From Roseimicrobium sp. ORNL1 (GTDB lineage Bacteria; Verrucomicrobiota; Verrucomicrobiia; Verrucomicrobiales; Verrucomicrobiaceae), in contig NZ_CP049143.1 of assembly GCF_011044495.1 (NCBI RefSeq), positions 3,844,001 through 3,908,000 of the forward strand: a DNA stretch of 64,000 nucleotides, given 5' to 3'. This document shows positions 282 to 23,022 of this stretch, one piece after another. Numbering within the stretch: the stretch's first letter is position 1; each line of letters starts with the position of its first letter. The position numbers and the translations under genes were made by a program. The notes beneath the pieces were generated by a model. It did no database searches and was not told where the DNA came from. It saw only the letters and a list, made by a program, of their open reading frames with translations.

Positions 282-302
282 TGTACTGACTGGTGTTAGG
301 AT

Positions 303-1787: not shown

Positions 1788-1858
1788 GCGATTCTTCCTA
1801 CGCCACCGGCGGCGAACTGGATACCATCCCGCTAAAGATATTTTTCTGCCCTGGGGTT

Positions 1859-3265: not shown

Positions 3266-3283
3266 CGTATACGAAAGCGAGTC

Positions 3284-4066
3284 ATGAAAAGGCGCATCGT
3301 TCTACCTCTTTCCGGACTGGCGTTGTTTCTGGTGTTTTCGGGCACTGCGCTGGTGGCATCTGCATCTGAAGTTAACAAGGGAGTGCGAGAGTTCCGAGAG
3401 GCTTACGCGTCATGGAACGCTGATGCTTTCGCACAGGCCGCGGGTACAGTCTCTAAAGCCGCAGCGAGTGACGGTGCTTCCGCCGAAGTGTACCACTGGC
3501 TTGGGGTGATTCAGTTCCACCAGATGCTTCAAAAGCGGAGTGAGTCGGGAAGCAGTGCGTCGACACCTGCGGTGGTAAAATTCCGCGAAGCGGCTATCGA
3601 GACGCTTACCCGTGCACTTCAAAAGGATGCGAAGGATGCTGAGGCACACGCCATGCTTGGAACGATGATGGGCATGAAGGTGGATGGCATGCTAAGCGGG
3701 CTCCGCTTTGGTCCCTCCATATCGCGGCATCAGGACCAAGCTCTGGCACACGGCACGGACAATCCTAGGGTGCAATACCTCCTCGGCGCCGCAAAGTATC
3801 ATACAGCCAAGGACAAGGATGGCTTTGAGTCTGCCCTTAAGTCTTTGCAAACTGCGGAGCGTCTCTTTGAAACCGAGAACAAGGAGCCGGCAGGCGAAGA
3901 AAATGCTCGGTGGGGCTACGATGCATGCCTGGTATTTCTGGGCCGTACCGAGGAAGCGCTCGGGAACCGGGAGAAGGCCGCCGGCTACTTCCGCAAAGCA
4001 CTTTCTGTCCGGCCTAACGACGATGGCGCCAAAGAAGGACTGAAACGGACTGCCAGTTCAACCTGA
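3284..4066 (+). CDS. secreted TPR-repeat protein in the carotenoid cluster
   Basis: A 260-residue protein. The ATG at 3284 is chosen because it starts directly with a signal peptide (MKRRIVLPLSGLALFLVFSG, cleavage likely after ASA). The mature part is helical with tetratricopeptide-like repeats: helix pairs around YHWLGVIQFHQM, AHAMLGTMMGM, RVQYLLGAAKYHTA and a clear TPR at the end (ALGNREKAAGYFRKALSVRPND). No catalytic motif is seen. It ends 10 bp before the crtP-like gene and probably shares its transcript. It may be a periplasmic scaffold for pigment enzymes or pigment delivery, but that is only inference; it is not part of the known staphyloxanthin gene set. Confidence 0.75.
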   Translation: MKRRIVLPLSGLALFLVFSGTALVASASEVNKGVREFREAYASWNADAFAQAAGTVSKAAASDGASAEVYHWLGVIQFHQMLQKRSESGSSASTPAVVKFREAAIETLTRALQKDAKDAEAHAMLGTMMGMKVDGMLSGLRFGPSISRHQDQALAHGTDNPRVQYLLGAAKYHTAKDKDGFESALKSLQTAERLFETENKEPAGEENARWGYDACLVFLGRTEEALGNREKAAGYFRKALSVRPNDDGAKEGLKRTASST

Positions 4067-4076
4067 CCCAGGACCT

Positions 4077-5561
4077 ATGCCCCAGAGGAAAGCAATTGTG
4101 ATCGGTGCTGGGCTCGGCGGCATTTCTGCGGCCGTATCCCTCAAGCAGGAAGGATATGAAGTAGCCATCTTCGAGAAGAACAGCCAGATCGGCGGCAAGC
4201 TCAACGTGCACAGGGAGCGCGGCTACTCTTTCGATCTTGGGCCTTCCATCCTGACGCTTCCACACATCTTTCGGAGGCTCTTCGAGAGATCGGGAAAGAA
4301 TCTGGAGGATTATATACCTATCCGGACAGTAAGGCCTCACTGGAGGAACTTTTTTGAGGACGGCACAGTCGTGGATTTGTATCCGGAGGCGGACAAAATG
4401 GCAGCGGAGGCGCTAAAGGTCGGCGAACCGTACGAGAACGTGGAGCGATTTTTGAAGTATTCAGCGGACCTCTATGACCTTACGAACGATGGTTACTTCG
4501 AGCAGGGTCTCGACAATTGGCGCGAATTCGGAAAACACTATGGGCTGTGGAAATTTCCTCAGTTCGATCTGTTTCGCAACATGCACAGCGGAGTTGCGTC
4601 GCACTTCGACACCCGCTATTTCAGGGACGTTTTTGATTTTTTCATCAAGTATGTTGGCTCGTCGGCGTTCCGCGCTCCTGCCTTCATGAACTCGATGGCG
4701 ACGATCCAGTTTCGCTACGACCTCTGGTATGTAGATGGAGGGCTCTACAACATCGCTGTTGGCCTGGGCCGCCTCATGGAGGAACTGGGAGTAAAGGTGC
4801 ATCTGGAGTCCGCTGTAGAGGAAGTGCGCCGTGAGGGAGGCAGGGTTACCGGTATCGTGGTCGGTGGAGAATTCCATGCGGCCGATGTGGTGATTTCGAA
4901 CATGGAAGTCATTCCGGCGTACAAGGAACTTCTCGGTGAAGAAGGGGCCTTCACGCGCAAACTTGAAAAACGCCTGGAGCCAGCTTGTTCAGGACTCATC
5001 ATAGATCTGGGGCTGGACCGTCAATACCCTCAACTGGCTCACCACAATTTCTTCTTCAGTGATGATCAGCGCGAACATTTTCGCACGGTGTTTGAGAAAC
5101 GCGAATTACCCCACGACCCCACCCTCTATGTGGTTGCTGCGTCCCGAACGGATGCAACGGTGGCCCCACAAGGATGCGACGCTCTAAAGATCTTGCCGCA
5201 CATCCCCTACATCGACGACGAACACCCGCTCAGCCGAGCCGACTACGAAGCCCTCAAGGATCGGGTGCTGGAAAAGCTGGAGCGCATGGGACTTGAGAAT
5301 TTGAGGCAACATGTCGTGGTCGAACATGTTTGGACACCGCTCGACATCCGCGAACAGTACAACTCGAATAAAGGTTCCATTTACGGGGTAGTGAGCGACC
5401 GCTGGAAGAATTTGGCATTCAAGGCACCAAAACAGAGCAGCAAATATCCCAATCTTTTCTTTGTGGGAGGTTCGGTTAATCCCGGGGGAGGGATGCCGAT
5501 GGTAGTGCTGTGCGGACAGAATGTGGCCAAGAAGGTGGTCGCCTGGCATGCGCAATGTTGA
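4077..5561 (+). CDS. crtP: CrtP-like C30 carotenoid oxygenase (CrtNb, diapolycopene/diaponeurosporene oxidase)
   Basis: A 494-residue member of the phytoene-desaturase/CrtI fold, paralogous to the crtN-like gene at 303-1787. It begins with the FAD motif IGAGLGGISAAVSLKQEG and IGGKLN, then FDLGPSILTLP. The C-terminal signature is FVGGSVNPGGGMPMVVLCGQ; NPGGG-type ends with PxVxLSGQ are typical of the oxygenase branch (CrtP/CrtNb) rather than the desaturase branch. Such enzymes oxidise terminal methyl groups of C30 carotenes to aldehydes. The start at 4077 follows an AGGA sequence at 4070-4073. It overlaps the next gene by 7 bp (ATGTTGA), suggesting translational coupling. Which of the two paralogues desaturates and which oxidises is judged from C-terminal motifs and gene order only. 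Confidence 0.83.
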   Translation: MPQRKAIVIGAGLGGISAAVSLKQEGYEVAIFEKNSQIGGKLNVHRERGYSFDLGPSILTLPHIFRRLFERSGKNLEDYIPIRTVRPHWRNFFEDGTVVDLYPEADKMAAEALKVGEPYENVERFLKYSADLYDLTNDGYFEQGLDNWREFGKHYGLWKFPQFDLFRNMHSGVASHFDTRYFRDVFDFFIKYVGSSAFRAPAFMNSMATIQFRYDLWYVDGGLYNIAVGLGRLMEELGVKVHLESAVEEVRREGGRVTGIVVGGEFHAADVVISNMEVIPAYKELLGEEGAFTRKLEKRLEPACSGLIIDLGLDRQYPQLAHHNFFFSDDQREHFRTVFEKRELPHDPTLYVVAASRTDATVAPQGCDALKILPHIPYIDDEHPLSRADYEALKDRVLEKLERMGLENLRQHVVVEHVWTPLDIREQYNSNKGSIYGVVSDRWKNLAFKAPKQSSKYPNLFFVGGSVNPGGGMPMVVLCGQNVAKKVVAWHAQC

Positions 5562-6601
5562 TACTGCTCGCCATTACTCTGGTGTTGTGGTCAGCAGGAT
5601 TTGCCCTTCTGCCAAAGTTGAAGCCTGCCCATTGTCGGAATGGCCCGCCCGCTGGAGGAATAGAACTTAGTGTCAGCGTCATTGTTCCTGCGCGGAATGA
5701 GGAAGAGAACTTGCCGCGTCTGCTGGCATCGCTGCAGCACCAGTCACACGCATTGCACGAGATCATCGTGGTAGATGACGAGTCAAGCGACCGAACCGCA
5801 GAGATAGCTGTAGAGTTTGGAGCAAGGGTAGTTAGCTCAGCTCCACTCCCCGCCGGATGGCGAGGCAAACCTTGGGCTTGCCATCAGGGCGCGAATGTTT
5901 CCCGCGGAAATCATCTGCTCTTCATGGATGCAGATACTTGGGTTGAAGCGAATGGAATTCAACGTTTGCTTGATGCCTACCAAGGCGGCGCATTGTCAGT
6001 GGGGCCTTGGCATGCGGTTAAGAAACTTTATGAGGAACTCTCATTGTTTTTCAACCTCAACATGGTCCTTGGCACAGTACCTCAGGGGTTGTTCGGACAA
6101 GTACTCTTGGTAGACCGCAAAAGTTACGTCAGTGCAGGAGGCCACGAGGTTGTAAGAAGTTTCGTGCTTGAAAACGTGATGCTCGCACAGCATTTCCATA
6201 AAGGGGGCGTACCGGTTCTGAGCATGCTTGGGAAGGGACATATTTCATTCCGTATGTACCCTCATGGCTTGTCAGAGCTGGTGCGAGGTTGGAGTAAAGG
6301 ATTTTCCTCGGGTGCCAAACGCACGCCGGGGCGGACTCTTGCTCTTAGCATTGCCTGGATGTCGGCTCTGATGCTCGCCCCGCTAGGCTGGATAGTATCG
6401 GGAGAACAAGGTTGGAGTGTAGTCTATCTGCTGTTCGCGGCGCAGATTGCCTGGATGGGCCGACTAGTGGGCAGTTTCAGGCCACTTGCCTCGCTCCTCT
6501 ATCCCATCCAACTTTTGTTTTTCTTTGGTGTCTTCGCGATGTCCCTGACAAAGCTGGGAAAGACCATAGGCTGGAAGGGGCGCAGCTTCGATGCACGTTG
6601 A
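5555..6601 (+). CDS. crtQ: CrtQ-like family-2 glycosyltransferase (carotenoid carboxylate glucosyltransferase)
   Basis: A 348-residue membrane-associated GT2 enzyme. It has an N-terminal transmembrane helix (LILLAITLVLWSAGFALL), then the GT-A core (VSVIVPARNEEENLPRLL, VVDDESSDRT) and a DxD-type motif in LFMDADTW. The C-terminal half has two or three further hydrophobic helices (ALSIAWMSALMLAPLGWI; LLYPIQLLFFFGVFAMSL). CrtQ esterifies glucose to 4,4'-diaponeurosporenoate at the cytoplasmic membrane. The ATG at 5555 is chosen because it overlaps the crtP stop and begins directly with the membrane helix; a GTG at 5510 would need a 45-bp overlap. Its 3' end overlaps crtO by 11 bp. Confidence 0.85.
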   Translation: MLILLAITLVLWSAGFALLPKLKPAHCRNGPPAGGIELSVSVIVPARNEEENLPRLLASLQHQSHALHEIIVVDDESSDRTAEIAVEFGARVVSSAPLPAGWRGKPWACHQGANVSRGNHLLFMDADTWVEANGIQRLLDAYQGGALSVGPWHAVKKLYEELSLFFNLNMVLGTVPQGLFGQVLLVDRKSYVSAGGHEVVRSFVLENVMLAQHFHKGGVPVLSMLGKGHISFRMYPHGLSELVRGWSKGFSSGAKRTPGRTLALSIAWMSALMLAPLGWIVSGEQGWSVVYLLFAAQIAWMGRLVGSFRPLASLLYPIQLLFFFGVFAMSLTKLGKTIGWKGRSFDAR

Positions 6602-7082
6602 GCTTCCAATTCTCTGGATCATTTTTCTGAATGTTGTCGGCTGGCTGGCAATTCAGTTGGGCTTGGCATGGTTGTTCACAAAAATGCCTGCGCGATGGTT
6701 CCCACCACCCGGAATTCCAAGCTGGGAGCACAACGGGAACATATATCAGCGTGTGTTCCGAATCAAAAAATGGAAAAAGCATCTGCCGGACGGGGCATCG
6801 TGGTTTAACGGCGGTTTCACCAAACAAAAGCTTTCCAGTTCGGAACAGGCCTACATCCGCCGATTCATGCAAGAGACTTGGCGAGGCGAGATATGTCATT
6901 GGACGGCTCTTGCGTGCACTCCCTTATTCTTAACGTGGAATCCGTTGGGGGGAGACTGTGTTGTCATTGTCTATGCCATCGCATCGAATGTCCCATGTGT
7001 ATTTGTTCAACGCTACAATCGTGCTCGCCTCAGTCGCATCATAGCGGTAGGAAACCACGCTCATACACCGGCATCGCGTTGA
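6591..7082 (+). CDS. crtO: CrtO-like glycosyl-carotenoate acyltransferase
   Basis: A 163-residue integral membrane protein, close to the usual length of CrtO (about 165). An N-terminal helix (ILWIIFLNVVGWLAIQLGLAWLF) is followed by WFPPPGIPSWEHNG and YQRVFRIKKWKKHLPDG, the polar block typical of the family, then two more hydrophobic segments (CHWTALACTPLFLTW; DCVVIVYAIASNVPCVFVQ). CrtO adds a fatty acyl chain to the glucose of glycosyl-diaponeurosporenoate, the last step of staphyloxanthin-type synthesis. It overlaps crtQ by 11 bp and closes the plus-strand operon. Confidence 0.85.
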   Translation: MHVELPILWIIFLNVVGWLAIQLGLAWLFTKMPARWFPPPGIPSWEHNGNIYQRVFRIKKWKKHLPDGASWFNGGFTKQKLSSSEQAYIRRFMQETWRGEICHWTALACTPLFLTWNPLGGDCVVIVYAIASNVPCVFVQRYNRARLSRIIAVGNHAHTPASR

Positions 7083-7459: not shown

Positions 7460-8314
7460 GGTCGTGTCTGAAAACCTGTATTCAAGACCTTAGCCAGTCA
7501 ATCACTGCGGCGAAGTGGATAAGGGAAAGGAAGTTCTGAACGAGCTTATCAAGACGGGTGGCGGTGCAGCCCCATCCCTTCAAGCGGCAGAAGAAGTTCT
7601 CCACCCGGTATCGAGTGCGGTACAGTTTCTTGGGGATGCGCACCTGGTGTTTGCGGTTCTTCTTGGTGGGGAAGCACGGCTGATGACCCAAGGCGCGTAG
7701 TGTGTCCCGAAGTTTGTCATCGTCAAAACCCTTGTCCCCCACGATGCGCAGATTACATCCCGTTCTGATTAGGTTGACCACATGACGTCCTTCGTAAGCC
7801 TGTCCTTCAATGAGCGTTGTGTTCACCAATCGACCTCGGGCATCGGTCAGAGCCATGAGCTTGGTGTTGCGTCCACCACGCGTCTTTCCCATGGCTTGTG
7901 CGGCAGCCCCGCCAGCGGGATTGGCCGCGCATTGGTGCACCAAGATGTGGGTGCCATCCACCAGGCGCACCGGACCGCGGACTCGGCGCGTGAAGACCTC
8001 CAGGATTTTGAACCAAAGGCCTTCCTTGGCCCAGCGGCTGTGCCAGCCGTGAATGGTGGAGTACGGCCCGAACCCCTCTGGCAGGTCACGCCAGGGCCCT
8101 GCGTTGCGCAGGCGATAGAACAGGGCCTCCAGTAGCAGGCCCAAGTCGGTGCGAGGCCGCCCGCCTTGATTTACCTGGGCACCACCATTTTTGTGAGCCG
8201 CTTTTTCCTCGGCTCCCACCAGAGAAATCGAACTTTCATGTCGTTCCTATGCTGCCACTAAATACCCTATGAGCAACGTTATTTAGGACTCATTTGAGGT
8301 TTTCAGACACGACC
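7460..8314 (-). mobile_element. IS5-family insertion sequence with perfect 18-bp inverted ends
   Basis: An 855-bp element with one transposase gene. Its ends are identical inverted repeats, GGTCGTGTCTGAAAACCT at 7460-7477 and the reverse complement at 8297-8314. The transposase stop codon lies only 5 bp inside the left repeat. The flanks share only a 2-bp TG (7458-7459 and 8315-8316), so a target duplication is not securely defined. Perfect ends and an intact gene suggest recent insertion. Confidence 0.85.
7482..8219 (-). CDS. IS5-family (IS427-like) DDE transposase
   Basis: A 245-residue transposase. The N-terminal DNA-binding part has the family block GGRPRTDLGLLLEALFYRLR followed by GPWRDLPEGFGPYSTIHGW. 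The catalytic triad is visible as Asp in LVDGTHI, Asp in VGDKGFDDD and Glu in YRVENFFCRLKGW. The tail (FLSLIHFAAVIDWL) is also typical. No in-frame ATG exists upstream; the first usable start is the GTG at 8219, and an in-frame TAG lies at 8247-8249. The gene appears intact and fills the IS. Confidence 0.9.
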   Translation of the reverse strand: MGAEEKAAHKNGGAQVNQGGRPRTDLGLLLEALFYRLRNAGPWRDLPEGFGPYSTIHGWHSRWAKEGLWFKILEVFTRRVRGPVRLVDGTHILVHQCAANPAGGAAAQAMGKTRGGRNTKLMALTDARGRLVNTTLIEGQAYEGRHVVNLIRTGCNLRIVGDKGFDDDKLRDTLRALGHQPCFPTKKNRKHQVRIPKKLYRTRYRVENFFCRLKGWGCTATRLDKLVQNFLSLIHFAAVIDWLRS

Positions 8315-9099: not shown

Positions 9100-9696
9100 T
9101 TAAGATGCTTCATCTGGATATCTAAGTCGAAGCAGACCCGCGAAGGATGGGGCAGATAGGTGTCCATGCCTTTTCAATATTGAACCGGCCTCTTTAATAA
9201 AGTCTCTGTAGGGTATGAGCATATCCCTGGCCTTGAACAAAAACCGCATCAGGGATTCATCCACCGACTGCATCCTTACGCCATTGCGCGGACAAGGCCC
9301 GACCCTCATCCACGGCACCTTGCCGATCAATTCACGCGCCTCATCGAAATCTTGCCCGCGGCATTTCGGCAGGTTGATCTGAGCAGCGGTCCTGAAAGGG
9401 CCCACTTCCCAAGCGAAACCAGCCAACGTCACCAGTAGCGAATCCTCATTGGAAATCTCCTCTCCGGTACCCTCGCAAAGTCCACCAGTTTCAGACACCC
9501 AAAGATTGGTAACTTTCAAGCCACGGAGCCACCTCATGACACCGTGCGCAACCTCGTGCTCGGCAATAGTTTGAATACCCACCGGACGAGGTGACGCAAG
9601 GCTGTGCGTCCGGCCACGGCTTGCACCAGTGGCCCCGGCACTCCTCTTGCGCCGAGACGCAGAAACGGGTGATGCTTTTTCATTCTTCGTTGTCAT
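9100..9696 (-). CDS. orphan M41-like (FtsH peptidase type) HExxH protein of the mobile module
   Basis: A 198-residue protein from an ATG at 9696. After a basic, low-complexity N-terminus (residues 1-40, many Lys/Arg/Ser) comes AEHEVAHGVMRWLRG, an HExxH zinc site at residues 47-51 in the form seen in the FtsH/M41 peptidase domain (xxHExAHxV). A Gly-rich stretch and LVTLAGFAWEVG follow, similar to the region after the M41 metal site. There is no AAA ATPase part and no membrane segment, so this is not a normal FtsH. Similar stand-alone M41-like proteins occur in mobile elements with unknown role. It ends the minus-strand module that includes the D5 helicase and the integrase. Confidence 0.6.
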   Translation of the reverse strand: MTTKNEKASPVSASRRKRSAGATGASRGRTHSLASPRPVGIQTIAEHEVAHGVMRWLRGLKVTNLWVSETGGLCEGTGEEISNEDSLLVTLAGFAWEVGPFRTAAQINLPKCRGQDFDEARELIGKVPWMRVGPCPRNGVRMQSVDESLMRFLFKARDMLIPYRDFIKEAGSILKRHGHLSAPSFAGLLRLRYPDEAS

Positions 9697-9762
9697 AACA
9701 GAATGTTGAAGCTGGTCATGCTTGTTGGTAATCAGAGCCCGACCTACTCAGCTATAAACGCC

Positions 9763-11622
9763 TCATTTGTCGGATTCTTGGTCCTCGACATCACTACAGC
9801 AGGCGCCGTTGACATGGTCAGCGGGGGTCGTAAGCCTGACGTGCTTGAAGCCGCGCTTGGCACCCCCATCGCGAACGATGTCGTTCCGTCTATTTGCTTT
9901 ATGAATCTCCGCCATGAGTGGCCCGAGCGCCTTCTGGACTTGTCTTCTGGGTTTTGCTTCCCATCTCTGCTCATCACAGAAGCTCTCGTATGCATCGAGA
10001 AGTTCCTCTACAGTAATACGTGCATCATCCTGGGGACGCACGCGAGTGTCCACGAAGATACGCAACGAATCGCTCGCTCGGAGAATTCTCGTCACGCGTT
10101 CCTTCTGCTCATCTGTGACGGGAAACTCACTCATGCTCAGGATTTCCATCGCACCGTCAATCATCCAGTTCAGGATGCCGCTGCCTTCTTGGAGTAGCAG
10201 CACCCTATCGAAATCCCGAATTTGCTTGGCGGCTCTGCGCGTGAATTCGATGATGTGCATCCGCCTCTCCCATGCGGATGCCTCATTGTCACCTTTCACC
10301 CTCAGCTGAAGATCGCTGTTCGTCAGAATTAGGATATTGACCTCACCAACGACCACACTTTTTGCACCACCCTTCTTCTCGCTAGCCAGTTCATCACCAC
10401 CTACCAGTGCCTTGATGACATTCGCTCCACGTTCGAAGAGGAATCTGTCGTCGACATCTGCCCCAATCAGGAGCGACGCTTTGCCCAGGTCGTCGAGTTC
10501 AAACCGCTCCCCTAGCAACGAGGTGCGCAGTGGCTTAATGTTCCGCTGGCCAATGACGGCTCGGATGATGCGTTCGATAGTCCCCTTCCCGCTCCCCCCG
10601 GGACCACTGAAGACCAGGAAGTTCTGGAAGATGTTGCGGCCAAGCAGGAACTGCCCGCAAAAGAGCTGGAGCATCTTCACATCCTCATCGCTCATGGCGG
10701 GACGGACTAGCTTGTCCAAAAAGTCGGGGCATCGAGCAGTGTCATCGTAAGTGAAGGGGATCTGGTACGTGCTGTAGAACGTATGCGCGAAGTCCCGCAA
10801 AGTGGGCGGGGAGGAGTTCAAATCCAGCATGCCATTCTTCACATGAAGGACTCCCATCGGGGGCCGCGAGAAACCCTCCGGAGCGAGGGCATGAGCTTCC
10901 AGATCGTTGAGCACCTCGTTCAGCCGGTATGGAGAGCGTTTGTCACTGAGAACCCTCTGCTCCAAGGCTTGGGAGTACTTGCGGAGATACTTTGCCAATT
11001 CAAGGCGAAGTTGCGCTTTGGACTCAGCACTCCACAGACCAGTCGCTTTGTCGTAGCTATAGAACTTACCCTCACCCGGGTAATACGTCACAAGGGTCTC
11101 ATGGGCATACCTTGCCGTCCAATAGTGCGGATCCCAATCTATAACCAAAGACCCTTCCCTATTGCAGATGAACGGATCTCCAATCTCCCTCAGATGCTCA
11201 TCGCTGATATGCCCCCGTTCAGGCCATACCGATGCGACCTGAATCTCTCGACGCCCATTCCCGTTAGGCGTATCACCACACTGTTGCTCACCGTTTCCTG
11301 TGGCGGAGCCCCGTGAACTGGGCGTGATCTCCTCGGTGGCAGATGCGCCGGGCGATGGGTTTAGCACATCTTCCCTGGCTGCTAGAGCAGCCCTGAGCTC
11401 TTTACTCTGGAGGAGAGCTAATCTTTCGAGATGGTCATCGGTTACTGGGGATAGCGGTGGATGTTCAGGTGAAGGCTGTCCGCTAGGATTGAGCGGGTCA
11501 TTACACTTTCTATTTTGATTTACATTTTCAATGGCTTGAATGTTCATTGACTGAAAGACTTTGAAATTTTTGGGCACGACGAGGCGCACGAGCGCAGCTC
11601 GCCGCAGGCATAGGGATGCCAT
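9763..11622 (-). CDS. D5/P4-type phage-plasmid primase-helicase (SF3 helicase)
   Basis: A 619-residue protein. Residues 1-120 are polar and probably disordered. The middle contains a D5_N-like region (VKNGMLDL, YDDTARCPDFLDKLV, MLQLFCGQFLLG). An SF3 helicase domain follows, with Walker A GPGGSGKGT at about residue 339, LLIGADVDDR as Walker B-like strand, and NILILTNSD plus WERRMHIIEF as motif C and sensor region. The C-terminal part (ITVEELLDAYESFCDEQ) matches the winged-helix end of P4-type replicases. No archaeo-eukaryotic primase catalytic domain is obvious at the N-terminus, so it may act only as helicase. The ATG at 11622 is used; an ATG at 11547 would remove 25 residues and is about equally likely because neither has a Shine-Dalgarno site. 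Confidence 0.85.
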   Translation of the reverse strand: MASLCLRRAALVRLVVPKNFKVFQSMNIQAIENVNQNRKCNDPLNPSGQPSPEHPPLSPVTDDHLERLALLQSKELRAALAAREDVLNPSPGASATEEITPSSRGSATGNGEQQCGDTPNGNGRREIQVASVWPERGHISDEHLREIGDPFICNREGSLVIDWDPHYWTARYAHETLVTYYPGEGKFYSYDKATGLWSAESKAQLRLELAKYLRKYSQALEQRVLSDKRSPYRLNEVLNDLEAHALAPEGFSRPPMGVLHVKNGMLDLNSSPPTLRDFAHTFYSTYQIPFTYDDTARCPDFLDKLVRPAMSDEDVKMLQLFCGQFLLGRNIFQNFLVFSGPGGSGKGTIERIIRAVIGQRNIKPLRTSLLGERFELDDLGKASLLIGADVDDRFLFERGANVIKALVGGDELASEKKGGAKSVVVGEVNILILTNSDLQLRVKGDNEASAWERRMHIIEFTRRAAKQIRDFDRVLLLQEGSGILNWMIDGAMEILSMSEFPVTDEQKERVTRILRASDSLRIFVDTRVRPQDDARITVEELLDAYESFCDEQRWEAKPRRQVQKALGPLMAEIHKANRRNDIVRDGGAKRGFKHVRLTTPADHVNGACCSDVEDQESDK

Positions 11623-12272
11623 ATAGGGGCGATAGATTTGAGGGCCTGGAGGACCTCAGTGAGAGCCCATGGCAGGAGGCCAGGGCCTTGGGCACGCCTA
11701 TCACATCCGATTAATCGGCGGAGACGTGGATTATGGAGTGGTCAGTTCTGGGTCAGGATTTGGTGTTTGTTGGTGAAGTTGATGATCTATTTCCTTCACG
11801 TACACCATGCTTCCGACGTGACCGATATGGCCTCTTCTGTACTGTGCCAACCTTGCTGTTGCCGAAGCACCAGCGGGTATGGAGATTCTTATGCATGACT
11901 GCAGGAAGTCAATAGAATTTGAAGCTCCTCGTTTCCAAGAAAGGAGCAGGTGCGCGGGCGATTTCTTGGATCGCCCGCGCACCTCCTTTGAGCAAAGTCA
12001 GAGGGCGTTCCGGGTGTGGAACAGCAAGCGTCTGAAGACGCCATTACCCCGGTCGCCCTGCCCTCCCTCCATCCTGCCCCGAGAAGCGCGCAGCAGACCA
12101 GTCCTTGATGAAGCACGGGCCTTCCCCTTTGTACTCACCACCTGCCCCTAACACTGCTCAGACTACGCCACCTCCAGGCACAGCCGGTACTCCCTCAATA
12201 GCACCGGCTCCTGCCCCTGCGAGTACTTGTAGGAATCCCAGCCCTCAGGAAGCCCTGGCGTATACAGGCAAC
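11623..12272. other. 650-bp intergenic region in the mobile module
   Basis: No open frame with recognisable content is found. The segment holds the D5 gene promoter region and one strong 15-bp hairpin (11948-11984), annotated separately. Confidence 0.5.
11948..11984. repeat. perfect 15-bp hairpin, GC-rich
   Basis: AGGTGCGCGGGCGAT (11948-11962), loop TTCTTGG, then the exact reverse complement (11970-11984). AAAGG before and CCTTT after the stem can extend it past a small bulge. It lacks a U-run on either strand, so it is not a standard terminator. It lies about 290 bp beyond the stop of the gene II-like initiator and could be a replication origin hairpin or an RNA element. Confidence 0.6.
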
Positions 12273-13313
12273 TTAAGGTTCCAGGATGCCCGGATTGTTC
12301 GTCATAAACTTAAGAAGCTCGTTCTCTGCCCATGGATTAACCACCTCTACGACCTTCAGTCGCTGCAGGGAAGGGACCAAGCTGGACAAGTCGAATGATC
12401 GGAGTACCACAGACTGGGCCTCCCTCCTTAATGCAGAAGCCCGCGATGGATGATGCTGCCGATGTGTAATGTATCGTTCAAGGATGAAACGATCCCGAAG
12501 CGCTTCCGAAGCGAAAAAACTCGCTAAGGAAGTCGTGGATGTGCTGGAATGATTACCCAGGTTTGTGAACTCAAGCACGAGGTCACGATACACACGATAC
12601 GCTTCATCGAAGGGGAATGACTTTAATCCGACCTTTGGGTCTACTCCGAAGGTCTTGGCCACGTACCCTTTCGACTCAAGCTTCAGTTCAATGCGGCTTA
12701 CCTCGGAACCGACTGAAGGAGTTATAGAGCACACGCCAGAGGCATTTTTGTACCGTGTCTTTGGTTTCTCCCATTTCATCTTGTCATAGATGGTGACAGT
12801 GAATCTATTTCCCTGGAACGCAATGTTTCCATTACCGAACAGATCCGGCCCTCCATAAATGCGTGGATGTCTGGCATTGTGGAGCACACCCCTCAGAGTG
12901 CTGACAGGGTGATTATACTGCCAGACCAAGTCTATCCGACTAATATGACCCTTATCAATAGTTGATGACTCACCTTTCACAATTGATTCGATACCCGGAT
13001 CTGCAATGAATTGCAGTACTGAATCAAGTCTGCGCAATGCAACCGTGAGGTCGGCTGCATTACGTATTAACCTTCCATTGTGTCCATACAAGAGCTTGGG
13101 AAGTTCACACTGGATACTCGTGATGTAATTTTGTGTCCCACTAGATAACCTGATGCCAATCAGTGGTAAAGACCAGTGTCTTGTGGAAGTAGTACAGGAA
13201 CCCTTAGTTTTACTTCTGTTAGTACTTTTGCGATTCGGGAATAGGGATTGCAGTTCAACTAATCTGTCGGGTAGATATGGTATGGAGCAGGTCCAAGATA
13301 AGGTGTCTATCAT
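12273..13313 (-). CDS. rolling-circle replication initiator-like protein (phage gene II/X family-like)
   Basis: A 346-residue protein from an ATG at 13313. It starts with MIDTLSW, as replication proteins of the filamentous-phage gene II/X type often do (short beta strand with IDT). Two strands carry regular acidic/basic patterns (ISRIDLVWQY and VSRIELKLESKG), and TVTIYDKMKWEKPK resembles the YxK-containing region of these nickases. Family proteins nick the plus strand at a double-strand origin to start rolling-circle replication. The match is by pattern only; the catalytic Tyr and His residues cannot be fixed with certainty. Its location between the D5 helicase and integrase genes supports a replication role for the element. 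Confidence 0.5.
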   Translation of the reverse strand: MIDTLSWTCSIPYLPDRLVELQSLFPNRKSTNRSKTKGSCTTSTRHWSLPLIGIRLSSGTQNYITSIQCELPKLLYGHNGRLIRNAADLTVALRRLDSVLQFIADPGIESIVKGESSTIDKGHISRIDLVWQYNHPVSTLRGVLHNARHPRIYGGPDLFGNGNIAFQGNRFTVTIYDKMKWEKPKTRYKNASGVCSITPSVGSEVSRIELKLESKGYVAKTFGVDPKVGLKSFPFDEAYRVYRDLVLEFTNLGNHSSTSTTSLASFFASEALRDRFILERYITHRQHHPSRASALRREAQSVVLRSFDLSSLVPSLQRLKVVEVVNPWAENELLKFMTNNPGILEP

Positions 13314-13387
13314 ACTTATGAATTACTGAAAATGTTTGTAAAAGCAGCGTTAATACAGCACGCGCATTCGGCGATGCGCTGGGACTA

Positions 13388-13417
13388 GCGGTGCCAAGTC
13401 CTTGAACTTGGCACCGC
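13388..13417 (-). terminator. strong 12-bp hairpin after the gene at 13460-14155
   Basis: GCGGTGCCAAGT (13388-13399), loop CCTTGA, ACTTGGCACCGC (13406-13417). It starts 43 bp beyond the stop codon at 13460. No U-tract follows on the minus strand, so termination would be imperfect; it may instead stabilise the 3' end or sit in the leader of the initiator gene (13313). Confidence 0.45.
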
Positions 13418-13459
13418 CTTCCTGTATGCTTACAGTTGAGCGGGTATTGCCCGTGTGAG

Positions 13460-14155
13460 TCAGAAAGTCCTGATGGACACGACTGCCCCCGTGTCACCCA
13501 AGGCACGTTCAAGTGACTCAGCGAACCGAGACGATGCGTCGGATGTTGCTTGTTCAAGCCAGATGAACACTTTCGATGCCAGCAAGTGGGGTACGTATGG
13601 CGCGATGGGCAACATGGTCGATCGGAGCGCGACCACACGGGAACCAGGGCGCTCCTCTCCTGCGTCAATGAGCTTAATGGCCAGCGCCTCGCTTTCAGAG
13701 ACGTGCAAGGTATCCGGGCAGGAAGGTTTGGCATCCCATGCCCTCCATGGTGCGCGGGGACAGCCAAACTTCATTGTGTCTGGGAAGCCGGGATAAGGCT
13801 TGCTGACAAATACCGCGCCACTGTAGATGAATGCCAATCTGTCCGTAAACAGGGCATCATCTATGAGACCCGGCCGTCCATTCCCAAGTGTGCCGACGGT
13901 TACAAATTGAGTGCCTTGCGGCACAATCCCCAACGTAGCCGGTTGCTCTTGTGCCAGGGCATTTATCGTGGCTGTGCCTACGCCGAGGCTCTTTGCCACA
14001 CGCTCTTGGAGCGTGGGATTGTGCTTAAGCATTAGCTGCCACTGTTGTGCTTCGGTGGTTATCTTTTTGTCATCTATACTAGCACTTCCGGCGTGGTTCG
14101 TTTCGGAGAAGAGGTGAATGGCTTGAGCGCCACTTTGATGTAATTGATTATTCAT
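13460..14155 (-). CDS. unknown mobile-element protein with a possible N-terminal HTH
   Basis: A 231-residue protein not recognised as a known family. The N-terminal third contains HNPTLQERVAKSLGVGTATINALAQ, whose spacing resembles a helix-turn-helix of a sequence-specific regulator. The rest is mixed and includes SGAVFVSKPYPGFPDTMKFG and, near the C-terminus, RVVALRSTMLPIAPYVPHLLASKVFIWLEQA, which may form a hydrophobic core. The ATG at 14155 overlaps the stop of the upstream small gene as ATGA, so the two are probably translated together. A plasmid/phage control or accessory role is only a guess from context. Confidence 0.6.
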   Translation of the reverse strand: MNNQLHQSGAQAIHLFSETNHAGSASIDDKKITTEAQQWQLMLKHNPTLQERVAKSLGVGTATINALAQEQPATLGIVPQGTQFVTVGTLGNGRPGLIDDALFTDRLAFIYSGAVFVSKPYPGFPDTMKFGCPRAPWRAWDAKPSCPDTLHVSESEALAIKLIDAGEERPGSRVVALRSTMLPIAPYVPHLLASKVFIWLEQATSDASSRFAESLERALGDTGAVVSIRTF

Positions 14156-14409
14156 ATTGATACTGGTGGTACGGCATCAGAGGACGAGTCCGCGATGCAT
14201 TGCTGGGTGTTTGTGGTTCGGTCGGGGACTTCCCTGGCGCCATGCTCTATGGCGTCGGCGGTACGGAAGTGAGTGCTACCGCCGGTTAAGACGATCGGCT
14301 CGAAGCCTGGCAACCACGGTCCGGCATCCCGGTCGGCGTGGCTCAATTTGGCTGATGATGATTGGCGAGGCCCTTTTCGGGCCTTGCGGGATTGATTTGT
14401 CTCTTTCAT
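14152..14409 (-). CDS. small basic protein of unknown function, coupled to the next gene
   Basis: An 85-residue open frame from ATG 14409 (upstream ATGs at 14460 and 14520 would lengthen it). The N-terminus is very basic (MKETNQSRKARKGPRQSSS) and the centre has PWLPGFEPIVLTGG. No family is recognised. The main evidence that it is real is the 4-bp ATGA overlap with the following gene and its position inside an otherwise unbroken minus-strand run from the integrase. A chance frame remains possible. Confidence 0.4.
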   Translation of the reverse strand: MKETNQSRKARKGPRQSSSAKLSHADRDAGPWLPGFEPIVLTGGSTHFRTADAIEHGAREVPDRTTNTQQCIADSSSDAVPPVSI

Positions 14410-14702
14410 ATTCTGCGTTGCGCGCTTTTCACGAGGGCGCGTCTCGCCACGAAAAGGCATGGCAATGCCCGTGTGGTTTTTTGGGGGGGGGAATGCTGGG
14501 CGATGGACGCCGAGCATCATTTCACACCGGGACCTTCAGCTTTGAGCTGAGGCCGCTTTCGGTCGTGGTAACAGTTGATCTTTTGCTGGGTGTTACCCAG
14601 ACCGGGGACCTGAATGGCCGCCTCCACCTGCACGCCCGCAAGCGGGCAGCCGGTCAAGATATCAGCGGTGGTTTTACCCTACCTTTTCTGATGTAGTTAT
14701 CA

Positions 14703-14900
14703 CTAGTTCACCCCAGTGAAGGAGTCTTGTTCGACGCGAATCACGTCAATTAGTCGGTATCTGATTCGATGCGCGCTGAGTCTGATGGAGGGAAGGGAGC
14801 CACGACGTTCCGCACGCTTGACCGTCTCGGGGTGGCACTTCCACCTTTCCGCAACTTCCTTCCTCGTAAGCAACTCGCAAATCGGATTCACTTTTGTCAT
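14703..14900 (-). CDS. excisionase-like helix-turn-helix protein
   Basis: A 65-residue protein consisting of little more than a winged HTH of the excisionase/MerR-like type: LLTRKEVAERWKCHPETVKRAERRGSL, then a short wing SIRLSAHRIRYRLIDVIRVEQD. Such proteins bend DNA at attachment sites and steer the recombinase to excision, or act as small repressors. The ATG at 14900 is preferred because the preceding 46 codons of the open frame are unlike the family. It follows the integrase gene on the same strand, 134 bp downstream. A small GC hairpin, GCCCGC aa GCGGGC, lies at 14634-14647 beyond its stop and could terminate the transcript. Confidence 0.75.
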   Translation of the reverse strand: MTKVNPICELLTRKEVAERWKCHPETVKRAERRGSLPSIRLSAHRIRYRLIDVIRVEQDSFTGVN

Positions 14901-15034
14901 TTCAATTCTGCATTGTCCAAAGGACAGCGGATCAATCGCCCCGGCTTCATAGGGCCGCAAGGCAAAAACATAAGAAAATGCGATATGTATTGTTATGCCA
15001 AATGTTATGTATACCTCGGAGGGGGCAGGTCTTC

Positions 15035-16381
15035 TCAACTTTCCAGAGCACTTGTTGGCGGCACTAGGAGGCTACCGAGACCTGTAGTAACCCGCTTCTT
15101 ATGGTCAGCGTAGAACTTGGCTGTAATGTCAATGGTCGAGTGCCTCAACACGCTCTTGGCAGCAAGAATGCCCGACGAAGTGGCGATGATCGAGCCGCAC
15201 TCCTTTCGCAACTGATGAATCGGCTTTCTTCCGTCCACCCCATGCGCCTTCAGCCAGACTGCGAGCCGTCGAAAATGGACATTTGCCCGGTAGTATGCGT
15301 TCTTCCGTTTGTGGTAGTTTGGCTTCTGCTGGCTCTCAATCACGAAGGGACCAGTGGCCTTTTTCTTCCACTCTTTCATCATTTCAGCTAGTCCTTCATC
15401 AAGCGCTACGGTTGCTTCGCTCTCGTGGCTTTTGGGTTGAAAGTGCTCGGTGGTCTCAATGGAGATGGTGCCACCCACCACATCCACTTGGCGCCACTGT
15501 AGCGTATCGACTTCAGCTTTTCTGAGCCCGCACAGAAGGCCAAGCATTAAAATCTTGAACTGCTCCAGTTTGGCTGGATTTCCTGCGAGTTCTGCCAAAC
15601 CAGCATTGACTAGAGCGGTTGGATCGACGCGGCTTTTGTAACTCTGCACCTTCTGTGATACTTCCATGCCCGAAAAGGGAAGAGGATCTGGGAGCACGAT
15701 TTCAGGCATGGTTTCGAGTAGCGTCCTTAAAGTCCTTTTTGAGAATAGGCTCCGGGCGTTTCTTATAAGCGCTGATGCCGAATTTTCGGCTCTCCGCCGC
15801 GCGTCTGGAGCATCCCCTGCCCTTTCGATGTACCTTCTCCTCCAATCTGCCACCGTCGCAGGTGACAGCAAATCGAGCGACAAAGCATCAACGGCCCTTC
15901 TCCACTCCTCGGTGTTCAGTGAATCGGCCCGGCCCTTTGACTTACCTCTGGCATGCTTGCTACGGATTGCCGCCACATCGGAAGCGATCGTTCGTATTGC
16001 CTGACTGTATGCCCTCAAGGTGGAGACGCGTACTTCTGCCAGGTTTTGAACCGCGGTGAGCAGCAGACCTACTGTTGTTGGGGAAGGTGGCTTCGGGGCT
16101 TTCTCAGGGCGAAATTGCTTTAAAGTCTCGTCCCAGCCCTTGGCGACCAAGCTGAGGTAGAGCCGGGCGGCCTTCTTGGCTGCAGCATCCTTGTTTGCCG
16201 TCTCTAGCGAGAAGCGCATCCGACGCCCCCTGTACGAAAGATGGACTCCGAAAGTCAGACACCTTCCAGGCATATCCACCCTTTCAAGCCAGTGCCTGTA
16301 GTCCGTCTTTGCAAACCGACGCACCCCGGCCGCTTCCTTGGTTTGCATTTGGTTTGCATTTTGTTTGTTCACCTGTGTCAT
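15035..16381 (-). CDS. tyrosine recombinase (integrase) of the tRNA-Leu-associated element
   Basis: A 448-residue phage-type integrase. The N-terminal part includes an arm-binding-like beta region (LTFGVHLSYRGRRMRFSLET) and a SAM-like core-binding domain around residues 100-230. The catalytic domain shows Arg I in GLLCGLRKAEVDTL, the HxxR box in IHQLRKECGS, a His in LRHSTIDITAKFYADH and the Tyr nucleophile in that same segment (KFY). It starts with ATG 16381 and the element's tRNA-derived end lies about 105 bp upstream, the usual place for an attachment site next to int. Confidence 0.92.
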   Translation of the reverse strand: MTQVNKQNANQMQTKEAAGVRRFAKTDYRHWLERVDMPGRCLTFGVHLSYRGRRMRFSLETANKDAAAKKAARLYLSLVAKGWDETLKQFRPEKAPKPPSPTTVGLLLTAVQNLAEVRVSTLRAYSQAIRTIASDVAAIRSKHARGKSKGRADSLNTEEWRRAVDALSLDLLSPATVADWRRRYIERAGDAPDARRRAENSASALIRNARSLFSKRTLRTLLETMPEIVLPDPLPFSGMEVSQKVQSYKSRVDPTALVNAGLAELAGNPAKLEQFKILMLGLLCGLRKAEVDTLQWRQVDVVGGTISIETTEHFQPKSHESEATVALDEGLAEMMKEWKKKATGPFVIESQQKPNYHKRKNAYYRANVHFRRLAVWLKAHGVDGRKPIHQLRKECGSIIATSSGILAAKSVLRHSTIDITAKFYADHKKRVTTGLGSLLVPPTSALES

Positions 16382-16486: not shown

Positions 16487-16543
16487 CAAGACTCAAAATC
16501 TTGTGTCCGCGAGGACGTGTCGGTTCGAGTCCGACCGCCGGTA
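16487..16543 (+). other. 3' fragment of tRNA-Leu(CAA): attachment-site end of the integrated element
   Basis: The sequence folds as the 3' half of a tRNA-Leu: anticodon stem CAAGA/TCTTG with loop CTCAAAA (anticodon CAA at 16494-16496), a long class-II variable arm (GTCC gcga GGAC), T-arm GTCGG-TTCGAGT-CCGAC, 3' acceptor strand CGCCGGT and discriminator A at 16543. No matching 5' half (acceptor strand and D-arm) exists upstream, so it is not a complete tRNA gene. Integrases that use tRNA genes leave such a 3' copy at one end of the element. The intact tRNA-Leu should lie at the other end, to the left, and is not in this window. Confidence 0.82.
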
Positions 16544-16559
16544 CTTTGTTGAAAGAGAG

Positions 16560-16890
16560 TCAATTACTTCCCGATTCATGCATGCGCCGCTCGGGTTTAC
16601 CGGGGCGCATGGGCAAAACTGGCTGACTGCGTTTCAGTGCCTGGACTTGGGTCTTCTCATCAACACATAGTACCAAAGCGTTGGCCGGTGGATCCAAGGA
16701 GAGACCCACTACATCGTGTACCTTGTCGATGAAATAAGGAGCGCTGGAGAGCGTGAAATTCTCACTGCGATGCGGTGCCTCGCCAAAGGTACGCCAGATA
16801 CGGCTCACCGTCTGGCGCGAAGACCCCACCGCTTGACCATCTCACGTGTGTTCCAGTGGGTCGCTTCCTTGAGGGTGCTTTCGAGAGACT
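16560..16890 (-). pseudogene. IS630-family transposase remnant (frameshifted, truncated)
   Basis: The minus strand codes for typical IS630 pieces: LESTLKEATHWNTREMVKRW in one frame, then, after a frameshift near 16820, QTVSRIWRTFGEAPHR, VVGLSLDPPANALVLCVDEK (first catalytic Asp) and TQVQALKRSQPVLP in another. The frame ends at 16560 soon after the first catalytic region, so the second Asp and the Glu are missing. It is a dead fragment lying next to the attachment-site end of the integrated element. Confidence 0.8.
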
Positions 16891-17197
16891 GTCTGGTACA
16901 CAGCCAAAGCCTCAAACTTCACCCCCAATTTCCGACACGCCTTCCTCCAATTCCCGAAACGATTTGACCTGCCGGGTTTGATAAAAGGGCGATGAGAACA
17001 TCGCCCCACCCCTTTCCTTGGTTCCAAATGTAATTGAACAAGATCTTGTTCCTGGCGCTACATCTCCTGGAACTCACGTACCGGCCTCGTCTGTAGAGTT
17101 TCCAGGTTCGCCCAAAAGCATCCTCCCTCCGGGACAAAAAACACGCTCATTCTTGGTCGTGAACTGACAAAAGGTGACTTCGACAACAGCGAGCCGG
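16891..17197. other. intergenic region between the IS630 remnant and the Tat-exported protein
   Basis: No gene is supported here; the short open frames on both strands have no recognisable content. It may contain further decayed IS DNA. Confidence 0.5.
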
Positions 17198-21402: not shown

Positions 21403-21927
21403 TCAGCCCCGGGGTGGGAACACACCCTGCAGTGCAATGTTGAAATAAAAGGTGAGAAACGGCTGGAGGTTGTTGTGCGGCGCATCGCCACCGGCTGGCG
21501 CCAAGGCCTCAGGAGCCATGGTCACGAGAGGTGCTCCTGCAGGCGGAAGGTAGGGCGAGGCACCGATGACGCGTGCAAGGGAATTACCCTGCGGAGTAGC
21601 GCTGTCTGCCGGTGGTACCTGAGCGTTGAGCGCATGGCTGTGGTTCGGAATCTCGCTCTCCAGGAGAGTGACGGTTTCTGAACCACCCGTTTCGCCCAAG
21701 TCGTGCAAGCTCAGCCCGGGGCCCTGTCCAGGATGCATGGGAGCGCGACCCTGAAGATCAGGAAGAGCGAAGTTGGATTTGCCATTGCCCCCGTAGGTCG
21801 TTCCCAAGAGGGAGAAGAGCGCCGTATTCTGCGAAAGCGGCAGGAGTTGGCCATCACACCAGGCCCAGCCTCTGGGCGCGAAGTTGAAAGGGAAGATGCG
21901 GATTTCTGCAACAAAAGGATCAGCCAT
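21403..21927 (-). CDS. phage tail-collar (MdpB-like) protein, third of a tandem trio
   Basis: A 174-residue protein with the tail-collar pattern: MADPFVAEIRIFPFNFAPRG, WCDGQLLPLSQNTALFSLLG, TTYGGNGKSNFALPDLQGRAP. It then has a Thr/Gln-rich segment with NHSHALNAQVPPADSATPQGN and ends LQPFLTFYFNIALQGVFPPRG. Such proteins carry the collar/receptor-recognition fold of phage tail fibres, and in bacteria they are often called microcystin-dependent proteins. There is no signal peptide. It is paralogous to the two genes upstream, separated by a 45-bp gap. Confidence 0.9.
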   Translation of the reverse strand: MADPFVAEIRIFPFNFAPRGWAWCDGQLLPLSQNTALFSLLGTTYGGNGKSNFALPDLQGRAPMHPGQGPGLSLHDLGETGGSETVTLLESEIPNHSHALNAQVPPADSATPQGNSLARVIGASPYLPPAGAPLVTMAPEALAPAGGDAPHNNLQPFLTFYFNIALQGVFPPRG

Positions 21928-21972
21928 CGGAGTATGGGTGGGAGATGAAAGGTTGAGTACGCGACACGCCGA

Positions 21973-22476
21973 TCAGGTGGGCGACGGGAAGATTCCAAAC
22001 AGCGAGATGATGAAATTGACGCAGAGGTAAGGTTGAAAATTGGTGTGGGGCTGGCTGCCGCCTATGGAGGAAATGGAAGCAGGCGCCATGGGAGCGCCGC
22101 CGGGAGTTGTCTGGTAAAGGTCGAATGTTCCAGTCTGAGCCAGGAGATTGGGAGATGGGTTGGCATCCGTGGCCACATTCGTGCTGGCCAGCAGAGGATG
22201 GCTGTGAGCAGGAATCTGACTTACCGTCAGCGTGATCTCTTCGGCCCCACCAGTCTCCGCAAGAATGAAGCCATTTCCCTGATGGATTGGGACGCGACCA
22301 CGCAGATCAGGAAGAGCGAAGGTGGACTCACCGTCTCCTCCGTAAGTGGTGCCAATGAGTTGGAAGAGCGTTTCGTTCTCCGAAATGGGAAGCGGTTGCC
22401 CCTCGCAAAACATCCATCCGGCAGGGGCGAAATTACCCGCGAACATTCGAACTTCACCGACGTAAGGTTGTGCCAT
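21973..22476 (-). CDS. phage tail-collar (MdpB-like) protein, second of a tandem trio
   Basis: A 167-residue paralogue: MAQPYVGEVRMFAGNFAPAGW, FCEGQPLPISENETLFQLIG, TTYGGDGESTFALPDLRGRVP, IPAHSHPLLAST and the end FQPYLCVNFIISLFGIFPSPT. It differs from its neighbours mainly in the middle, as expected if the three subunits are specialised parts of one assembly. It starts with ATG 22476. Confidence 0.9.
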   Translation of the reverse strand: MAQPYVGEVRMFAGNFAPAGWMFCEGQPLPISENETLFQLIGTTYGGDGESTFALPDLRGRVPIHQGNGFILAETGGAEEITLTVSQIPAHSHPLLASTNVATDANPSPNLLAQTGTFDLYQTTPGGAPMAPASISSIGGSQPHTNFQPYLCVNFIISLFGIFPSPT

Positions 22477-22521
22477 GGGAAAGTGAGTGTGTGAAAGATT
22501 GGTCCGGTCGTGTAATGCGAA

Positions 22522-23022
22522 TCAAGTCGGCGACGGGAAGATGCCCTGAAGGGCGATGCAGAAGTTGAGCGTCAGGAAAGGCTGCATGTTGAGGTGCGCC
22601 TGGCTGCCGCCGACGTTCGACACGGACGGAGCTCCCATCGCCACCAGGTTGGTTGCCTGGCTGTAAGCCGGAAGATTGTTCTTCGCGAGAAGGTTGTTCG
22701 CGGGAACAAGTGCGGTACCCTCGTTTGAAGTGGCGTTCAGGACATGCGTGTGAGTCGGAATCTCCGCAATGGACAAGGTGTGAGCCGCCTCGCCACCACG
22801 TTCTCCAAGAGTGTGATTGGAACCCACATGAATGGGCACCCGGCTCCTGAGGTCAGGGAGGGCAAAGTCCACGCGCCCATCACCGCCAAAAGTAGTTCCC
22901 AACAGCGAAAAAAGTCCCTGGTTCTGGTTAATGGGAAGCAACCCCCCATTACAGAACGCCCACCCTTTGGGAGCGAATGCGAATGACATGATGCGAATCT
23001 CGGAGAGGAATGGCTCGGCCAT
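22522..23022 (-). CDS. phage tail-collar (MdpB-like) protein, first of a tandem trio
   Basis: A 166-residue paralogue: MAEPFLSEIRIMSFAFAPKGW, FCNGGLLPINQNQGLFSLLG, TTFGGDGRVDFALPDLRSRVP, IPTHTHVLNATSNEGTALVP and MQPFLTLNFCIALQGIFPSPT at the end. It is the first gene of the minus-strand operon (trio plus GNAT), starting 140 bp downstream of the giant adhesin gene, so it probably has its own promoter in 23023-23162. Confidence 0.9.
   Translation of the reverse strand: MAEPFLSEIRIMSFAFAPKGWAFCNGGLLPINQNQGLFSLLGTTFGGDGRVDFALPDLRSRVPIHVGSNHTLGERGGEAAHTLSIAEIPTHTHVLNATSNEGTALVPANNLLAKNNLPAYSQATNLVAMGAPSVSNVGGSQAHLNMQPFLTLNFCIALQGIFPSPT

Follow-up and report, generated by a model that had tools for sequence, protein, structure and literature searches.

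The DNA analysed here is a 64,000-nucleotide stretch (the window) corresponding to C1:3844001-3908000 of the 7.96-Mb one-contig genome of Roseimicrobium sp. ORNL1 (G000), and the locus in question lies at 9100-16381 of the window. This locus is likely to be the right-hand arm of a capsid-less integrative element inserted at a tRNA-Leu gene, which would most probably replicate by a rolling-circle mechanism after excision.

The product of 12273-13313 is predicted, with good support, to be a replication initiator akin to the filamentous-phage gene II proteins and the Rep_trans nickases, because the evidence from its structure, its sequence profile, and its conserved catalytic residues agrees. An earlier note on this DNA had proposed a gene II-like initiator at this position, with structure prediction as the check; when the prediction was performed, the results from BFVD, VIA, hhalign, and the catalytic residues were all in line with the proposal, the activity being predicted. 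The best match of the AlphaFold model in BFVD was the Inoviridae G2P, with an E-value of 5.5e-8 and a TM-score of 0.44. In VIA, which represents a second look at the Foldseek candidates and in which a best Z of 7-8 is typical for models without a clear Foldseek match, the top three of 995 chains were two staphylococcal Rep chains and RepSTK1, with Z values of 9.7, 9.5, and 9.3, root-mean-square deviations of 5.4, 5.7, and 4.1, and aligned lengths of 213, 215, and 186. The next was TBP with a Z of 7.3, and TBP is described as having the Rep_trans sheet topology (Carr et al, PMC4797284). The VIA ranking thus points to the crescent sheet fold of Rep_trans, the model being moderate and Foldseek alone negative. 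Furthermore, hhalign scored the 31-member initiator family at 89% (E-value 2.2e-6) against a set of seven gene II proteins from inoviruses, and seven other families used as controls reached at most 1.1%. Consistent with this distant profile similarity, the GHN, R-I-D, Y-x-K, and R-x-E motifs of the filamentous-phage gene II/X proteins (inovirus G2P) align with the initiator. The window initiator differs from them in its identity of only about 12% and in residing in a tRNA-inserted element with its own helicase; near it, unlike in filamentous phages, no virion or morphogenesis gene was recognised, and none of the coat and Zot/pI genes expected of an inovirus prophage was found among the scanned proteins.

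The catalytic residues provided further evidence. In Rep_trans proteins, the nucleophile is Y191, which is accompanied by K193, R140-x-D142 and R212-x-E214 are strictly conserved, and the metal ligands are D46, D142, and E214 (Carr et al, PMC4797284). In the initiator family, Y176, K178, R207, and E209 were invariant in all 31 members, D128 was D or E in 30 of the 31, R126 was R in 24, and, of the 24 members that have an aligned residue at position D3, 23 have D there. The initiator has, therefore, the catalytic arrangement of Rep_trans (Tyr-x-Lys, R-x-D, R-x-E, and an N-terminal Asp), in which Y176 is predicted to be the nucleophile, with K178 beside it, and D3, D128, and E209 the metal ligands, the residue correspondence being by motif order rather than by residue-level superposition. 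The second Asp of Rep_trans motif I (D146) has no conserved counterpart, Q132 being present in the initiator, and the protein begins at the catalytic domain (MIDT). Similar motifs are also reported for Phage_Cri proteins (Carr et al, PMC4797284).

Relatives of the initiator were found in 9 of 142 related genomes by a single-sequence search and, with a nine-row profile, in 26 of 288 genomes of the order and 6 of 387 genomes drawn from the phylum, the own genome being counted in each case. Among named records, the family is present in two Verrucomicrobiaceae bacteria, one Prosthecobacter, and one record titled Akkermansia muciniphila. At the sensitivity used, none was found in 50,697 phage records, 2.9 million viral contigs, and a plasmid collection, and the only sign of a second initiator in G000 was a match with an E-value of 0.0046 at C1:12990. 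The family is unrecognised by Pfam, PHROGs, and NCBIfam, with single-protein library scans being empty, and PDB sequence searches gave no useful match.

All seven minus-strand open reading frames (ORFs) of the locus that the earlier note had listed, as integrase, excisionase, two unknowns, initiator, D5 helicase, and M41-like gene, are present where it had placed them. The features of the locus, including the helix-turn-helix (HTH) protein gene and the superfamily 3 (SF3) helicase gene, are as follows.

16489..16548, plus strand: attachment site, 60 bp identical to the tRNA-Leu(CAA) locus (the 3' part of the gene and the 4 bases that follow it)
15035..16381, minus strand: tyrosine integrase (Pfam, PHROGs, active-site motifs)
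14703..15038, minus strand: HTH/excisionase-like protein, true start perhaps internal (Pfam, PHROGs)
14152..14520, minus strand: ORF A, protein without family match, with a 4-base overlap with ORF B (ORF call, Pfam, PHROGs)
13460..14155, minus strand: ORF B, protein without family match (ORF call, Pfam, PHROGs)
13388..13417, no strand assigned: hairpin with a perfect 12-bp stem, located shortly before the initiator gene begins, putative candidate origin or regulatory site
12273..13313, minus strand: predicted gene II/Rep_trans-like nicking replication initiator or relaxase (structure, profile, residues)
11945..11987, no strand assigned: long hairpin (stem of 18 bp including one mismatch) located downstream of the initiator gene, putative candidate origin
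9763..11622, minus strand: D5-type SF3 helicase (Pfam D5_N/DUF5906, PHROGs primase/helicase families, Walker A)
9100..9696, minus strand: small putative zinc metalloprotease, last of the seven genes (HEVAH zincin motif)

The 15035-16381 product matched Phage_integrase (1.4e-11, Pfam) and the PHROG integrase (8.8e-20) and has the active-site motifs GLR at 285, HQLR at 389, and Y424, and the 14703-15038 product matched HTH_17 at 3.1e-5, which is under the Pfam cut-off, and the PHROG excisionase at 1.4e-5. The D5 protein matched D5_N (2.6e-9) and DUF5906 (4.2e-11) in Pfam and a PHROG primase-type family (1.9e-49), with the Walker A motif GPGGSGK at 340. The products of 12273-13313, 13460-14155, and 14152-14520 had no significant family match of their own in Pfam and PHROGs, and PADLOC gave nothing useful for 9100-9696 and 13460-14155. 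The M41 label given to 9100-9696 was not borne out, because its HEVAH motif is accompanied only by a sub-threshold M50B match (0.0042, Pfam). The description of the module as capsid-less held, with no significant structural or packaging match among the seven proteins in Pfam and PHROGs; the sole packaging family listed was a terminase small subunit on the HTH protein, with an E-value of 0.32 (PHROGs).

The integrase gene starts 108 bases from the attachment (att) site, whose repeat extends to 66 bp with one mismatch. The intact tRNA-Leu(CAA) gene is located at C1:3771653-3771737, left of the locus, and the two att copies lie 88.8 kb apart in the same orientation. A blastn self-comparison indicated no other repeat both as long and as alike in 102 kb, and Rfam gave a sub-threshold tRNA match at the att site, its other matches on the window and the relatives being tRNAs and one group II intron. 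An integrase adjoining a tRNA-Leu-derived att direct repeat supports the integrative nature that had been proposed, and the arrangement typical of tRNA-targeting integrative elements was also found in two relatives, G025 and G064. The limits first assigned (9100-16381), on the other hand, cover only the right arm and miss both the att site and the other arm, about 71 kb away. This second arm adjoins the intact tRNA-Leu gene, outside the window, and encodes the following.

Left arm: DUF5131 protein
Left arm: unknown protein S
Left arm: PD-(D/E)XK nuclease
Left arm: ATP-dependent ligase with a WGR domain
Left arm: DNA polymerase III beta-type clamp
Left arm: DUF932 protein
Left arm: C39-type peptidase
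Left arm: HTH protein

Three of these proteins, namely the clamp, the ligase, and the nuclease, have matches to replication families in PHROGs. A simple inversion splitting the arms was rejected, both att copies having the same orientation and the right arm preceding its att copy, and so were tandem elements, the interval having no third att-like copy except chance matches of 9-14 bases. Near the inner edge of the right arm, an IS5-family transposase gene with 18-bp exact terminal inverted repeats was observed at window 7460-8314. Directly outside the att site (window 16560-17137), there is what appears by eye to be an IS630-type transposase remnant; it is unconfirmed, its 89-aa frame having no Pfam match.

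The element of G025 is compact, with the initiator (33% identical) and the D5 helicase (43% identical over residues 107-614 of the window protein) neighbouring each other beside tRNA-Leu(CAA), the same tRNA gene as in G000. DUF932, clamp, ligase, nuclease, and S then follow on the opposite strand, and an exact att copy of 55 bp lies 90 bases beyond the end of the integrase gene; the repeats delimit an element of about 32.5 kb. If the integrase is taken as the reference, the initiator block and the S-to-DUF932 block of G025 have the opposite orientation to those of G000; the HTH gene near DUF932 is exempt and is not collinear, because its relative orientation in G000 differs from that in G025 and G064. 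The G025 element has extra genes for an SRAP protein and an S24 peptidase, next to which lies a gene for a Y-family polymerase (IMS) fused to PHP/Pol III alpha (1414 aa; L091:3675-7919). It also carries DruA/SspF-like fusion, SspG-like, and DndH/HerA-like genes (L091:8294-17984), a possible mixed defence system; these Druantia/Dnd-like genes are probably defence cargo, and PADLOC on one G025 gene gave nothing useful. In G064, a 35-bp exact copy of tRNA-Val and the intact tRNA bracket about 49 kb that includes the initiator, the integrase, and the same kit of accompanying genes, with no D5 match. Among the scanned proteins of the window arm, the left arm, the G025 element, and part of G064 (three proteins, one being an endolysin-type amidase), there was no significant head, terminase, or tail match.

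The gene neighbourhood was compared at 31 of the 33 initiator places, the third G251 place and the weak G220:C3 place being left out; the counts are lower bounds because many neighbourhoods end at contig ends. S was present in at least 13 of the 31 neighbourhoods, the nuclease in 12, DUF932 in 11, the clamp in 9, and the ligase in 8, and the integrase family of the window element in 5. When 415 kb of control DNA was searched with the six kit profiles, there was one match, to the nuclease (9.4e-10). In 14 of the 31 neighbourhoods, a count that includes three manually added att copies, the initiator was no more than 4 kb away from a tRNA or att copy, and random large ORFs there gave a mean of 5.9 and a maximum of 12 in 5000 draws. 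As additional observations, the family of a radical SAM protein, one member of which was scanned, was near the initiator in 8 of the 31 neighbourhoods (e.g., L029:7176-8567), and the contig of another initiator copy has a group II intron match (L024:62-147; Rfam RF00029, 67.5 bits).

The earlier note had read two replication strategies into one element. This was rejected as an over-reading, since no primase domain was matched by Pfam in the D5 protein, the first ~165 residues of which had no match, and a nicking initiator and an SF3 helicase are plausible partners that fit one rolling-circle scheme. The primase fused to D5_N/SF3 that characterises D5/P4-type primase-helicases is accordingly not found here. 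G000 has three other D5 helicases, which are 25-26% identical, and no initiator relative was found at their loci, two of which have an HTH-like protein and a related 362-450-aa protein as neighbours. As no initiator relative was found at these loci, the pairing of D5 with the gene II-like protein is a special combination and not the rule for D5.

The hairpins flanking the initiator gene only suggest where an origin may be located. The downstream hairpin contains a perfect 15-bp stem at 11948-11984, and folding gave z of -6.6 for 11930-12000 and -7.1 for 13380-13430 around the upstream one, both stretches having been picked after the hairpin was seen. The upstream type of stem was found in three of six close members, and strongly folding DNA downstream of the initiator gene in four of five close relatives, with a conserved pair of hairpins in G064, G045, and G039 and another sequence in G066. 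The origin assignment is weak because no twin hairpins of this form were seen in the window or in G025; the proximal downstream stretch of the window (12120-12260, z -0.9) and that of G025 (z -0.2) folded no better than shuffled sequences. A conserved pair of long hairpins directly downstream of the initiator gene was observed at L026:6578-6708, L024:4328-4458, and L025:404-532, with z of -6.9, -8.2, and -3.9.

The distance between the D5 and DUF932 genes is 73 kb in G000 versus about 3 kb in G025, and about 71 kb of it lies between the left-arm HTH gene and the zincin gene. Two interior stretches, one of 5.6 kb at 90.6% identity and the other of 19.6 kb at 97.5%, have their counterparts on a single contig of a congener (G001:C20, 99 kb), which yielded no match to either arm; no initiator match was found in G001. 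The 19.6-kb block (window 1-7030, C1:3831471-3851030; G001:C20:14770-34337), which includes a flavin adenine dinucleotide-dependent desaturase/amine-oxidase-type gene at window 4077-5561, is by its sequence evidently a recent exchange between species, because it is 97.5% identical whereas the tRNA-Leu flanks of G000 and G001 are only about 76% alike. The short distance in G025, the failure to find either arm on the congener contig, and the flank identity together indicate that the middle ~71 kb is probably a later insert or exchange and not part of the element core.

Several observations weigh against a rolling-circle element of this kind. The Pfam Rep_trans profile (PF02486) misses the family, with no match for the window protein and a best value of 0.043 among nine members, and it gave no match in 93 genomes of the order, though the positive control works in Bacillus subtilis. 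The AlphaFold model is mediocre (pLDDT 72.4, pTM 0.69, five sequences; other models 41-62), its TM-score in BFVD is under 0.5, and Foldseek against PDB gave nothing below 1e-3. Both ends were identified in only 3 of the 31 neighbourhoods, contig ends cutting many. The expectation that the genes occur together elsewhere held in part: the initiator and D5 pair recurs once, in G025 at the same tRNA gene, but D5 accompanies the initiator in only 2 of the 31 neighbourhoods. Finally, the separation of the arms by about 71 kb speaks against a working element here, and its present mobility is therefore doubtful.

Based on the anatomy of the locus, the integrase and HTH protein may cut out the segment bounded by the two 60-bp att copies. 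The initiator, given its relationship and residues, would then nick an origin near its own gene with Y176, and the D5 SF3 helicase could unwind the DNA from there, replacing a host helicase or acting alongside one, with the left-arm clamp, ligase, and nuclease aiding synthesis and resolution. The process might yield a copy, either circular or single-stranded, which would re-integrate or be handed on by the transfer machinery of another element.

An alternative that we consider possible but unlikely is that the gene II-like protein serves in transfer, as a relaxase comparable to the Rep_trans-related MOB_T relaxases, the element being an integrative mobilizable one that borrows a conjugation apparatus, with replication secondary. 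The window initiator resembles the Rep_trans initiators (staphylococcal Rep and RepSTK1) and MOB_T in fold (VIA Z 9-10), the Tyr, the Lys, and the three-carboxylate metal site, and MOB_T relaxases are reported to have the Rep_trans active site and to act in integrative elements (PMC6499999, PMC7563843). An integrase, an HTH protein, and a nickase with no transfer-apparatus match among the scanned proteins would also be a possible anatomy for a mobilizable element, and integrative mobilizable elements with Rep_trans-family relaxases are similarly described as integrated and as combining an integrase with a nickase (PMC7563843). In contrast to those described there, however, the window element carries genes for an SF3 helicase, a beta clamp, and a ligase, which are replication genes, and for an exonuclease, and no coupling protein was matched among the scanned proteins. 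The window protein, moreover, has no match to PF02486 or to an HTH domain, by which MOB_T relaxases are recognised (PF02486 with or without an N-terminal HTH), and its motif I is without the second Asp. That it starts at the catalytic domain, whereas RelSt3-type MOB_T have an N-terminal HTH, is a weak argument because NicK-type MOB_T also lack the HTH (PMC6499999).

It is similarly unlikely, in our estimate, that a single large genomic island occupies the 88.8-kb interval, about 71 kb of it being cargo, with the replication genes as incidental passengers. The att repeat does bracket the whole interval, and the 19.6 kb within it moved recently; the ~3 kb between D5 and DUF932 in G025 and the presence of the congener's matching block on a contig that yielded no match to either arm are nevertheless difficult to reconcile with it.

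P4/PICI-type satellites (PICI, phage-inducible chromosomal island) carry an integrase and a D5 primase-helicase. The element of the window shares with them the integrase and D5 helicase, but its D5 has no primase match, a gene II-like initiator is present instead, and no capsid-related gene was recognised. A degraded prophage or phage satellite, of which the gene II, D5, clamp, and nuclease genes would be phage replication genes and the capsid genes lost or supplied by a helper, is improbable: the D5 and nuclease have phage relatives at 23-28% identity among the matches listed, and the PHROG replication matches of the left arm fit it, but neither the scanned proteins of the arms and relatives nor, at the sensitivity used, the phage and viral-contig collections searched with the initiator gave the matches expected of it, viral-contig searches with the nuclease and with D5 gave nothing useful, and the satellite option of the earlier note has no positive support beyond the distant phage relatives of some genes.

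Outside the element, the window contains three look-alike small proteins at 21403-23022, one of which was scanned and has a Phage Tail Collar domain (1.7e-27), and beside them a giant ORF of 5829 aa at 23163-40652.

Returning to the tRNA-inserted rolling-circle element, integrative filamentous phages are already known as integrative elements with a rolling-circle nickase. Such elements are also known with MOB_T nickases (PMC6499999). The apparent novelty lies in a gene II-like family that the libraries do not recognise, in the pairing of this family with a D5 helicase, and in the presence of a clamp and a ligase on the element itself; in a limited search, no such element in Verrucomicrobiota was named in titles and abstract openings of the open-licence literature. 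We tentatively suggest, as a wider and less probable reading, that Verrucomicrobiota harbour a hitherto unnamed lineage of capsid-less elements inserted at tRNA genes, the initiator of which has a common ancestry with gene II and the rolling-circle replication of which may be partly independent of the host machinery. Within the same suggestion, these elements would carry a partial replisome consisting of a beta clamp, an ATP ligase, an exonuclease, in some an SF3 helicase, and in G025 also the Y-family/Pol III alpha fusion.

The present analysis provides a likely function and a predicted active site for a protein family unrecognised by Pfam, PHROGs, and NCBIfam, and it links filamentous-phage replication to tRNA-inserted elements of another phylum. 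It also raises the question of whether an SF3 helicase and a clamp encoded alongside a gene II-type nickase can serve as its partners in place of host helicases.

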